Part shown: positions 17,866 through 26,184 of the stretch, one piece after another
How the letters are laid out: each line of letters starts with the position of its first letter
Position numbering within the stretch: position 1 is the stretch's first letter
IMG/VR virus record: IMGVR_UViG_3300042301_003334
Location: 1 to 30,014 of that record
Strand: one strand, 5' to 3'
Source: a virus
DNA length: 30,014 nucleotides
Translations under genes and position numbers: made by a program
The notes under the pieces: generated by a model
Database searches by the model: none
Told to the model about the DNA's origin: nothing
The model's input: the letters and a program-made list of their open reading frames with translations, nothing else

Positions 17866-18498
17866 TTACCCTTCCATATCTGTGGTGTCGATATCTTTTA
17901 TCTTACCACAAATTAGGCACTCTTCATCACCATCACCATCAGCATCGCCCCAAACGTGTTGACAATTACGGTGGTCAAAATACTCATCAATTACACCATC
18001 TCCGTCAAAATCTAAACCATCCATTTTACCGTCACCATCTTCATCGATTTCAACACCTACTTTGGTTTGTTTTTCTTCTGATTTTGATACTGTAGGTATA
18101 ACTTCTGTCTCGTTTTTAAACCCACTATTAGATATTGCTTGTGTAAATGATTCAGGTACTATTGGACTATAAGTTTTTTTTTCACCGTCACCACTACCCG
18201 TGTCTGAAAGTGATACACCATCTTCTTCGTCCATTTTCTGAACTAACATTTTATCTTTATCCGTATCTGAGAACCAATAGTCTACAATTTTACCATATGA
18301 ACCAATGAACGCTCCAAGTAATAATAATAGTAATTCTTTCCAAGCTTCATTAATTTCTGCTTTAAATACAATCGCTCCACCGATACCAAATACCGTACCC
18401 ATGAACGTCAATAACACAATAAGTGTCATTTTCCATCTACGTGTCATCATCTGGTTTAGAAGGTCTCTAAATCCCGTGTTTTCTTGTTGTTGTGCCAT
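17866..18498 (-). CDS. Holin-like membrane protein with EF-hand-like acidic repeats, 210 aa
   Basis: N-terminal part: two hydrophobic spans (24-46 and 54-70) followed by GSYGKIVDYWFSDTDKDK (66-83), similar to phage holins whose second span ends in a YWFGSS-type motif. C-terminal part is soluble and has calcium-loop-like motifs DEDGDGKMDG (152-161), DFDGDGVIDE (163-172) and DADGDGDEEC (185-194), plus Cys179-x-His181 and Cys194-x-x-Cys197, a possible zinc site. Holins rarely carry such a tail, so a calcium-sensitive pore is an interesting possibility. Operon partner of the 107-aa and 82-aa genes. Confidence 0.68.
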   Translation of the reverse strand: MAQQQENTGFRDLLNQMMTRRWKMTLIVLLTFMGTVFGIGGAIVFKAEINEAWKELLLLLLGAFIGSYGKIVDYWFSDTDKDKMLVQKMDEEDGVSLSDTGSGDGEKKTYSPIVPESFTQAISNSGFKNETEVIPTVSKSEEKQTKVGVEIDEDGDGKMDGLDFDGDGVIDEYFDHRNCQHVWGDADGDGDEECLICGKIKDIDTTDMEG

Positions 18499-18515
18499 AT
18501 TATGTATTTGTTAAA

Positions 18516-18839
18516 TTACCAAGCTGCTGGTTTTTCGGTAAACTCATCACTTTCCTTCTTTTTAGGCTTTGGTGCGGGTGCCGGTGCAGGTGCGGTTTGT
18601 GCCGTTCCGTTTCCACCACCTTTGTTGATGATTACGGTTTTGCCTGCAGCTTGTTGTTGAGTTTGGTTTTGAGTAATGTTTATTACAGGTGCCGCTGCAG
18701 GTGCTGCTGCCGGTTGTTCTCCACCACCGAACATTTGTGAACCTAACCAGGCTCCTCCTGCAGTAACAATCGTTCCTACCGTCCCGATTAGTGTTTTTAC
18801 TAATCCTGACATTGTTCCATCATTTGATTCTTCTGACAT
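18516..18839 (-). CDS. Membrane protein with Ala/Pro tail, 107 aa
   Basis: After a short polar start there is one hydrophobic span (about 12-36, LVKTLIGTVGTIVTAGGAWLGSQMFGG). Then come two Ala/Pro-rich linkers (PAAAPAAAP and PAPAPAPKPKKK) around a middle part INITQNQTQQQ. This design fits a small envelope-spanning protein such as a spanin-like element, or one carrying a flexible arm; it has no lipobox. It lies in the putative lysis cluster with the two holin-like genes. Confidence 0.62.
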   Translation of the reverse strand: MSEESNDGTMSGLVKTLIGTVGTIVTAGGAWLGSQMFGGGEQPAAAPAAAPVINITQNQTQQQAAGKTVIINKGGGNGTAQTAPAPAPAPKPKKKESDEFTEKPAAW

Positions 18840-24150: not shown

Positions 24151-24252
24151 ATGAAACGCTTTACACATATTACGTTTACTACATTCGCAGCCAAGTGGTG
24201 TGCGATGGGTGAGATTAGTATGTCTCGAGGTTTCAGCAATTGTATAGGATAG
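24151..24252 (+). CDS. Candidate leader peptide, 33 aa, in a short transcript
   Basis: ATG to TAG (ends ATA GGA TAG); hydrophobic/basic with two Cys (MKRFTHITFTTFAAKWCAMG). Sits between a clear host promoter and a terminator, and closely parallels the 34-aa frame at 27521. May be a leader peptide, or the transcript may act as RNA. Low coding evidence by itself. Confidence 0.4.
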   Translation: MKRFTHITFTTFAAKWCAMGEISMSRGFSNCIG

Positions 24253-24281
24253 TTAAAAAGTTAACAATAATATATTATAAG

Positions 24282-24312
24282 AACCTCGGGACAAAATCTC
24301 GGGGTTTTTTTT
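24282..24312 (+). terminator. Terminator of the short transcript
   Basis: AACCTCGGGA pairs with TCTCGGGGTT (two G-U pairs), loop CAAAA, then T8. Confidence 0.85.
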
Positions 24313-24318
24313 GTTTTT

Positions 24319-25137: not shown

Positions 25138-25189
25138 TGTTCACAAAATCTGATTGTTCACGGACCGTGAACAGACAAAAAAAGTGAAC
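25138..25189. repeat. Nested GTTCAC/GTGAAC inverted repeats between tRNAs
   Basis: TGTTCACGG-A-CCGTGAACA (25155-25173) is a perfect 19-nt palindrome. An outer GTTCAC (25139-25144) and GTGAAC (25184-25189) add a second pair around it. It could be an operator or a processing hairpin. Confidence 0.7.
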
Positions 25190-25194
25190 AAAAA

Positions 25195-25268
25195 GTCAGG
25201 TTGTCCGAGATGGTTAGGAGCTGGTCTGCAAAATCAGTTGTACGTTGGTTCGAGTCCAACACTTGACT
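25195..25268 (+). tRNA. tRNA-Cys(GCA)
   Basis: Acceptor GTCAGGT/ACTTGAC (one G-U); anticodon loop CTGCAAA in stem CTGGT/ATCAG; T arm GTTGG/CCAAC. Confidence 0.9.
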
Positions 25269-25461: not shown

Positions 25462-25612
25462 TATATTTGTCTCAAGATAATGGTTTTCACCGCTAAACGG
25501 ATGTCGACAATCCATAGTGGAGTCTGAAATCATAACCCTCTGCCGAGCGCTCGTAAAACTACGATTAAGCAGTCAAGAATGGAACGAAACGGGTATTCCA
25601 TCATTATCTTAA
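25462..25612 (+). ncRNA. Structured RNA A (about 137 nt) with its own -7 element
   Basis: TATATTTG (25462-25469) is followed 5 nt later by a 9-bp closing stem AAGATAATG/CATTATCTT (25474-25482, 25602-25610). Inside: CCG-CTAAA-CGG or GGAT/ATCC (alternatives), CTGC/GCAG around a TCGTA-AAAC-TACGA hairpin, and ATGGAA/TTCCAT (25579-25601). No ORF of note. Abuts tRNA-Thr. Family not recognised. Confidence 0.62.
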
Positions 25613-25613
25613 A

Positions 25614-25689
25614 GGCTCCCTTAACTCAGTTGGCCAGAGTAGCTGATTTGTAATCAGCCTGTCGGCGGTTCGAATCCGTCAGGGAGCTC
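25614..25689 (+). tRNA. tRNA-Thr(TGT)
   Basis: Acceptor GGCTCCC/GGGAGCT (G1-U72); anticodon loop TTTGTAA in stem GCTGA/TCAGC; T arm GGCGG-TTCGAAT-CCGTC. Confidence 0.9.
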
Positions 25690-25880
25690 AACAAGTGACG
25701 ACTGTGGTGTAACCCCACGGTATATAAAACCCAAAATGGTCCTGTTGAAGCCGGAATAGTCATACAGGTCAGGGGAGAGTTACTATAAGCGGGGAGTAAT
25801 TAACCCATTTGCGAAAATGTAACCACCAAGTGTAGAGATATATTTGGTTATGATGTACGGAAGGGTACAAAAAACTTGTT
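25690..25880 (+). ncRNA. Structured RNA B (about 190 nt), GNRA tetraloop
   Basis: Closed by AACAAGT/ACTTGTT (25690-25696, 25874-25880). Six further helices: GTGG/CCAC (25704-25718), CCTGT/ACAGG (25741-25768), TTACT/AGTAA (25780-25799), CATTT-GCGA-AAATG (25806-25819), TAACCA/TGGTTA (25820-25850), TGTAC/GTACA (25854-25869). No ORF. A multi-branched RNA inside the tRNA array; not recognised as tmRNA, RNase P or a known riboswitch. Confidence 0.65.
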
Positions 25881-26000
25881 AATTTATTAATTTATATTCT
25901 GATGTTTTTTTAAATAATTTTGTTTTACTTAAACAAATTTAGTTATAAAAGAAGTTGAAGAAATGTAAACATCGATATAGAATGTAAATTAATAGAGTTT

Positions 26001-26087
26001 GATTACGTGAGGTGTGTCGCATAACTAATGCAATCCCCTAATAGGGACTAATGTAAGATTAAGATTCTTACTACACCAAACGTGATT
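26001..26087 (+). ncRNA. Cloverleaf-like RNA C upstream of tRNA-Glu
   Basis: Outer stem GATTACGT/ACGTGATT (two G-U), then GGTGT/ACACC; three arms: GCAT-AACTA-ATGC, CCCT-AAT-AGGG, and TAAGA-TTAAGAT-TCTTA (5 bp + 7-nt loop like a T arm). It resembles a tRNA without the usual T-loop, D-loop GG or anticodon loop. The stretch 25881-26000 before it is AT-rich; nothing recognised. Confidence 0.55.
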
Positions 26088-26096
26088 GAATTATTT

Positions 26097-26168
26097 GCCC
26101 CTATCGACAAGCGGTTAAGTCACGTCCCTTTCACGGATGAGTCACGGGTTCGATTCCCGTTGGGGGTA
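26097..26168 (+). tRNA. tRNA-Glu(TTC)
   Basis: Acceptor GCCCCTA/TGGGGGT with wobble pairs; anticodon loop CTTTCAC in stem CGTCC/GGATG; T arm ACGGG-TTCGATT-CCCGT. Confidence 0.88.
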
Positions 26169-26184
26169 CACTAAATAATATATT

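Follow-up and report, generated by a model that had tools for sequence, protein, structure and literature searches.

The window analyzed here, a 30,014-base IMG/VR virus record, carries at positions 25690-25880 (+ strand) a standalone structured RNA of ~185-191 nt, hereafter RNA B, which is almost certainly a real, conserved, noncoding element; 34 distinct homologs share a covarying fold, and model R1 scores it at 186 bits. It belongs with the structured phage RNAs of tRNA arrays; GOLLD and ROOL are both far larger, and model search shows no relationship to either. RNA B is best read as a new, small phage RNA of the ornate type that is probably a homodimer, and we put at roughly 0.55 the probability that it is a trans-acting structural RNA that probably dimerizes through its P3 arm and acts during infection.

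RNA B is present in about 48 IMG/VR contigs by our own count, and its carriers form one clade of uncultured large phages whose hosts are probably Bacteroidota. Three diverged homologs (78-83% identity) were recovered from relatives found via neighboring proteins, and further members were identified by scanning viral contigs for patterns of conserved blocks. An exact pattern, CATTTGCGAAAATG, was rejected as a family search, as it gave at least 120 matches in viral contigs, mostly unrelated. A much looser gapped pattern matched 40 contigs and added just one new member; the family therefore appears nearly saturated in IMG/VR. Covariance-model scores of the members tested were 111-199 bits where the sequence was long enough, and 25 of ~100 records searched gave matches of 150-199 bits, one per genome. 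All complete members span 173-212 nt with P1 closed. Searches of isolate phages, plasmids, and GTDB (bacterial) genomes yielded no homolog, and four genome-contig matches to a short pattern failed the covariance model.

Querying Rfam 15 (cmscan, 4227 families, E up to 10) returned no match to RNA B in the window, and no covariance-model match was obtained to ROOL, OLE, raiA, or other Rfam classes. The copy at locus L334 gave only chance-level snoRNA and lncRNA matches, and neither ARAGORN nor Rfam identifies RNA B as a tRNA or tmRNA. No reading frame is conserved; the longest closed ORF of a given member has 4-34 codons. Rfam 15 lacks the family, and none of the papers searched was found to describe it. 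The first-pass annotation had suggested a new, smaller class of RNA as one possibility, and that suggestion is supported by a covariance search for known classes (Rfam, including GOLLD and ROOL) that gave no match to E 10, a viral alignment in which the helices covary, a distribution over about 48 contigs, and the presence of a separate, true GOLLD gene.

Folding energy by itself is weak evidence for structure; the 191-nt stretch has a minimum free energy of −50.3 kcal/mol (z −2.0, with 5 of 200 shuffles equally good), and the mean z over the 34 homologs is −1.96. The covariation evidence is strong. When a model of helices P1-P7 is laid over an alignment (A4) of the 34 distinct sequences, standard pairs fill 97.6% of its helix cells, and 17 of 35 pairs carry two-sided changes, a level reached by none of 500 shuffles (118 two-sided-change cells, against a shuffle mean of 32); controls with slid partners pair in only 32-46% of cells.

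All helices lie on the + strand. P1 begins directly 3′ of a tRNA-Thr; its strands AACAAGT (25690-25696) and ACTTGTT (25874-25880) close the RNA, as first annotated. It shows two-sided changes at five of its seven pairs and occurs as AACAAGT/ACTTGTT, AACAGGT/ACCTGTT, and AACAAAC/GTTTGTT. The P2 hairpin (ACTGTGG/CCACGGT, 25701-25721; three pairs with two-sided changes) bears a 7-nt loop, UGUAACC (U-GNRA-YC), that is GNRA-like or T-loop-like. P4 (GTTAC/GTAAC, 25779-25783/25819-25823) is 100% paired, with one pair changed from C-G to G-C in L083, and encloses P5 (GGG/CCC, 25792-25794/25804-25806), a nearly invariant helix (93.9% paired) with a conserved AGTAATTAA loop. The P6 hairpin (25825-25848; variants CCAA/TTGG, CAGA/TCTG, and CCGG/CCGG) has two-sided changes at four of five basal pairs, and the P7 hairpin (TGTAC/GTACA, 25854-25869), 100% paired, at two of five, with variants GTAC/GTAC, GTTC/GAAC, and GTGT/ACAC. 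The seven helices initially described are thus about right in number, comprising P1 and six inner helices (P2, P3a/P3b, P4, P5, P6, and P7) that are supported. The hairpin CATTT-GCGA-AAATG named among them is not retained; its middle pair is kept in 3 of 34 sequences and two other pairs in 16-18 of 34, and it competes with P4 and P5. With it falls the GCGA tetraloop, though a conserved GNRA-type loop does exist, as GAGA at 25835-25838 on P6. An H-type pseudoknot (GUUACU/AGUAAU with GGG/CCC) was also set aside; it fits 96% of cells but is invariant and carries no covariation, so that the alignment speaks neither for nor against it, and L083 fits P4 (GUUAG/CUAAU), not the pseudoknot.

The P3 arm (25730-25774, +), represented in the window by a CCGG-type exchangeable cassette, consists of P3a (25730-25732/25772-25774) and P3b (25741-25748/25760-25768), and is supported by covariation and by cassette swapping on a tree of the remaining RNA. 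Variants of P3b, checked by eye and by folding each cassette, include CCGTCT/GGGCGG, CCGTTT/GAACGG, CCGTCC/GGATGG, and, in L282, GTGTTT/GAACAC. Eight cassette types are exchanged among otherwise similar RNA Bs: L300 and L311 are nearly identical outside P3 and have different arms, and a tree of RNA B minus the P3 arm calls for at least eight loop-type changes. The core of the apical loop is palindromic in every cassette, with cores such as CCGG, CGCG, and CTAG and palindromes of up to 8 nt (by cassette, CCGG, CGCG, TCTAGA, ATCTAGAT, ATCGCGAT, CTCGCGAG, and GCGCGC). The window's own loop holds a palindrome of 4 nt only, CCGG at 25751-25754 (+), a candidate symmetric kissing-loop (homodimer) site.

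Changes in the loop run from GC to TA in two backgrounds, and from A-T to C-G at the outer pair. Two neighbors in a single chain are unable to pair with one another, so that changes of this kind point to a contact between two RNA B molecules, for which our own tests are suggestive only. For OLE L9.3 and GOLLD L21a, pairing between molecules was likewise argued from covariation of adjacent nucleotides (PMC12286853). For palindromes of at least 4 nt, multiplying the per-loop shuffle chances gives 0.002, a modest figure that takes no account of kinship. A column-based test of the loop in a MAFFT alignment gave a mixed result, partly because MAFFT misaligns the CCGG type: 58% of cells were paired versus 46% in shuffles, and the covariation score was reached by 25 of 500 shuffles, with slid controls as high and the CCGG type misregistered.

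The opening of a DHH-type phage phosphoesterase gene in L092 and L124 resembles the window-type P3 at 30/36 nt (E 0.009). A link between the two was rejected; the DHH gene was not found in the B-bearing genomes searched, and the similarity is probably chance or an old exchange. The gene itself, which lies outside the window, contains an in-frame TGA within its HQDL-DGVT motif (CAY CAR GAC CTN TGA CTN GAY GGN) in 30 contigs representing 15 distinct sequences (L393-L421, L124, and L092/L403; e.g., L403:1240-1400). The protein is conserved on both sides of the TGA, and orthologs in L370-L372 have no stop (HQDLDGV in L370). A covarying inverted repeat, GTCCTG(G/A)TTGAAAGT/ACTTTCA(C/T)CAGGAC, lies upstream, and the gene is a candidate for a programmed 6-nt ribosome bypass or other recoding.

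The window encodes a T4-type large terminase, a portal protein, and an ATP-dependent protease. Its close relatives reach 130-335 kb in length, and the window is therefore a piece of a large phage genome. A tRNA array of at least 16 genes (ARAGORN, Rfam) extends from 24.3 kb to the window end, and within it RNA B is flanked by tRNA-Thr(UGU) (25615-25689, +; ARAGORN and Rfam) and tRNA-Glu (26097-26169). A single ~407-nt RNA reaching from tRNA-Thr to tRNA-Glu, and so joining RNA B to the linker and RNA C described below, was considered and rejected; the spacer is conserved in four lineages, and RNA B stands without linker and RNA C in most other genomes and is therefore its own unit.

Sequences upstream of RNA B suggest how it would be expressed. 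A promoter of the form TTG-N19/20-TAnnTTTG ends 3 nt before AACAGG at six loci (L309, L313, L323, L291, L334, and L298), and at L087 and L090 only the −7 box is present, ending 4 nt upstream of AACAAG. In flavobacteria this box lies between −12 and −5 relative to the transcription start (PMC9723704), and transcription of RNA B should therefore start at base 1 or 2 of P1. At most other loci, P1 starts 0-5 nt 3′ of a tRNA, and in L309 and L334 a T-run directly follows P1. From these placements of promoter, tRNA, and T-run, we infer an independent RNA with its ends at P1. In the window genome, the 5′ end would be set by 3′ processing of tRNA-Thr, and a Bacteroidota-type −7 box, TATATTTG (25462-25469, +), in the same block that lies directly before RNA B in L087 and L090, is the probable promoter of a unit comprising RNA A, tRNA-Thr, and RNA B.

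Several other elements were observed in the same array. RNA A is a structured element of ~140 nt (25474-25614) closed by AAGATAATG/CATTATCTT, adjoining the 5′ side of tRNA-Thr and having its own −7 box at 25462; homologs occur in L083 (91%) and L257 (72%). The linker and RNA C (25881-26096) are 82-91% conserved across four lineages and contain, besides a long AT-rich hairpin, a second closed structure (GTTTGATTACGTGAGGTGTG.../...ACACCAAACGTGATTGAA) whose 3′ limit is tRNA-Glu. Another conserved element, RNA D, lies immediately 3′ of RNA B at L284:11761-11840 and ~20 other loci, with the sequence blocks CTAACTCAACGAGGACTTTGTCAACCAGAGC...GGATGGTGCAACTTAAG...GAGTTAGAATC. At the head of the array (24230-24315) is a strong hairpin resembling an intrinsic terminator, CGAGGTTTC...GAACCTCGGGACAAAATCTCGGGGTTTTTTTTG, whose conservation is 91% in L083 and partial in other relatives, and the gap between tRNA-Arg and tRNA-Cys (25140-25195) holds nested inverted repeats, TGTTCAC...TTGTTCACGGACCGTGAACA...GTGAACA, that recur in L313 and L323. 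With RNA B, the tRNA arrays of these phages carry a set of structured RNAs besides GOLLD.

The fold and its conservation also bear on explanations other than dimerization. It is rather unlikely that RNA B is a monomeric small RNA that binds a protein or the ribosome as a decoy or regulator, as 6S RNA does for RNA polymerase, with the P3 palindrome incidental or part of a short, CNNG-capped intramolecular extension. Its size and self-contained fold suit protein binding, the strongly conserved unpaired GACGAC, ATAAG, CGAAAA, and GATG could be protein contacts, and the outer pairs of the P3 loop can be drawn as extensions within one molecule; however, a CNNG loop leaves unexplained why the central dinucleotide is GC, TA, or CG, always self-complementary and never otherwise. 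6S-flavo (RF01685) is a Bacteroidota noncoding RNA of the same general size class, yet RNA B gave no covariance-model match to it, nor to any Rfam family. A catalytic role, self-cleaving or other, was the second possibility raised in the first-pass annotation and is scarcely credible. The compact multi-helix fold, highly conserved internal loops, and possible pseudoknot would suit a ribozyme, but there is no match to an Rfam ribozyme family at E 10, the pseudoknot helix is the invariant one described above, which carries no covariation, and a promoter, tRNA processing, or a T-run accounts for both ends, the 5′ end in particular being explained by a promoter or adjacent tRNA and not by cleavage.

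Genomic placement invites two further readings. Were RNA B to act in cis on the tRNA transcript, as a spacer guiding the processing or stability of neighboring tRNAs, its frequent position directly 3′ of a tRNA, often tRNA-Thr, would follow; this is very improbable in view of its own promoter, with no tRNA directly upstream, in L291, L298, L309, L313, L323, L334, L087, and L090, the T-run after it in L309 and L334, and the variability of its tRNA neighbors. It is improbable that a GOLLD particle from the same genome has RNA B as a partner or accessory subunit, although GOLLD scores above the Rfam cut-off (a gathering score of 150 bits for its covariance model) in 20 of 22 larger B-bearing records versus 1 of 11 B-free relatives, always on the strand of RNA B and about 2.4-13 kb away. 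The palindrome type of RNA B shows no agreement with palindromes in or around the GOLLD of the same genome, and pairing of the P3 loop with GOLLD was rejected; G022 has GOLLD without RNA B, the 100-kb contig G096 has RNA B without GOLLD, and the co-occurrence may reflect only a shared clade, both belonging to its tRNA array. The two are separate genes, and the GOLLD model gave no match at RNA B in the window or its homologs. In the two closest relatives, the GOLLD RNA genes (L082:16178-16561 and L083:17911-18293) follow RNA B at a distance of 6.5-8.2 kb on its downstream side, and L082 carries a tmRNA as well (18427-18828).

Under the preferred reading, of a trans-acting RNA that dimerizes, a host-type promoter would yield a primary transcript beginning at P1, or, by an alternative route, tRNA end-processing would excise RNA B from a tRNA-bearing transcript. 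The RNA has a compact, multi-arm fold that P1 closes; two copies would most likely pair via the palindromic P3 loop, and the product would serve as an RNA-only homodimer scaffold in infection, a small counterpart of GOLLD, ROOL, and OLE. A more specific version, which we advance tentatively and at less than even odds, is that RNA B represents an unusually small new ornate class, forming an RNA-only homodimer or higher oligomer by means of an evolving palindromic kissing loop on an exchangeable arm; if so, related co-infecting phages could differ in which RNA Bs pair with one another. The loop types predict pairing partners, in that RNAs of the same type should dimerize and mixed types should not. 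A ~185-nt family with clear secondary structure, defined ends, and many natural variants offers a far simpler target for synthesis, probing, and structure determination than the large RNAs GOLLD, ROOL, and OLE, recently shown to form RNA-only assemblies.

RNA B shares with ornate phage RNAs an extensive covarying structure, a noncoding nature, and a location in tRNA arrays. GOLLD (RF02032), which like RNA B is a noncoding RNA of phages located within or close to tRNA arrays and which is present in most B-carrying genomes, is a homo-oligomer with symmetric palindromic kissing loops (PMC12286853), but measures >400-800 nt as compared with ~185 nt, and RNA B falls short of the length above 400 nt, with a conserved 3′ half, by which GOLLD is recognized. 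ROOL, an ornate RNA that sits close to tRNA islands of phages and assembles into RNA-only multimers (PMC12286853), resembles RNA B in this placement and is much larger; RNA B has no Rfam match of any kind. OLE differs in being a large bacterial RNA outside phage tRNA arrays, with no sequence or model match to RNA B; nevertheless, it is an RNA dimer whose L9.3 tetranucleotide palindrome switches between palindromes, like the P3 loop of RNA B.
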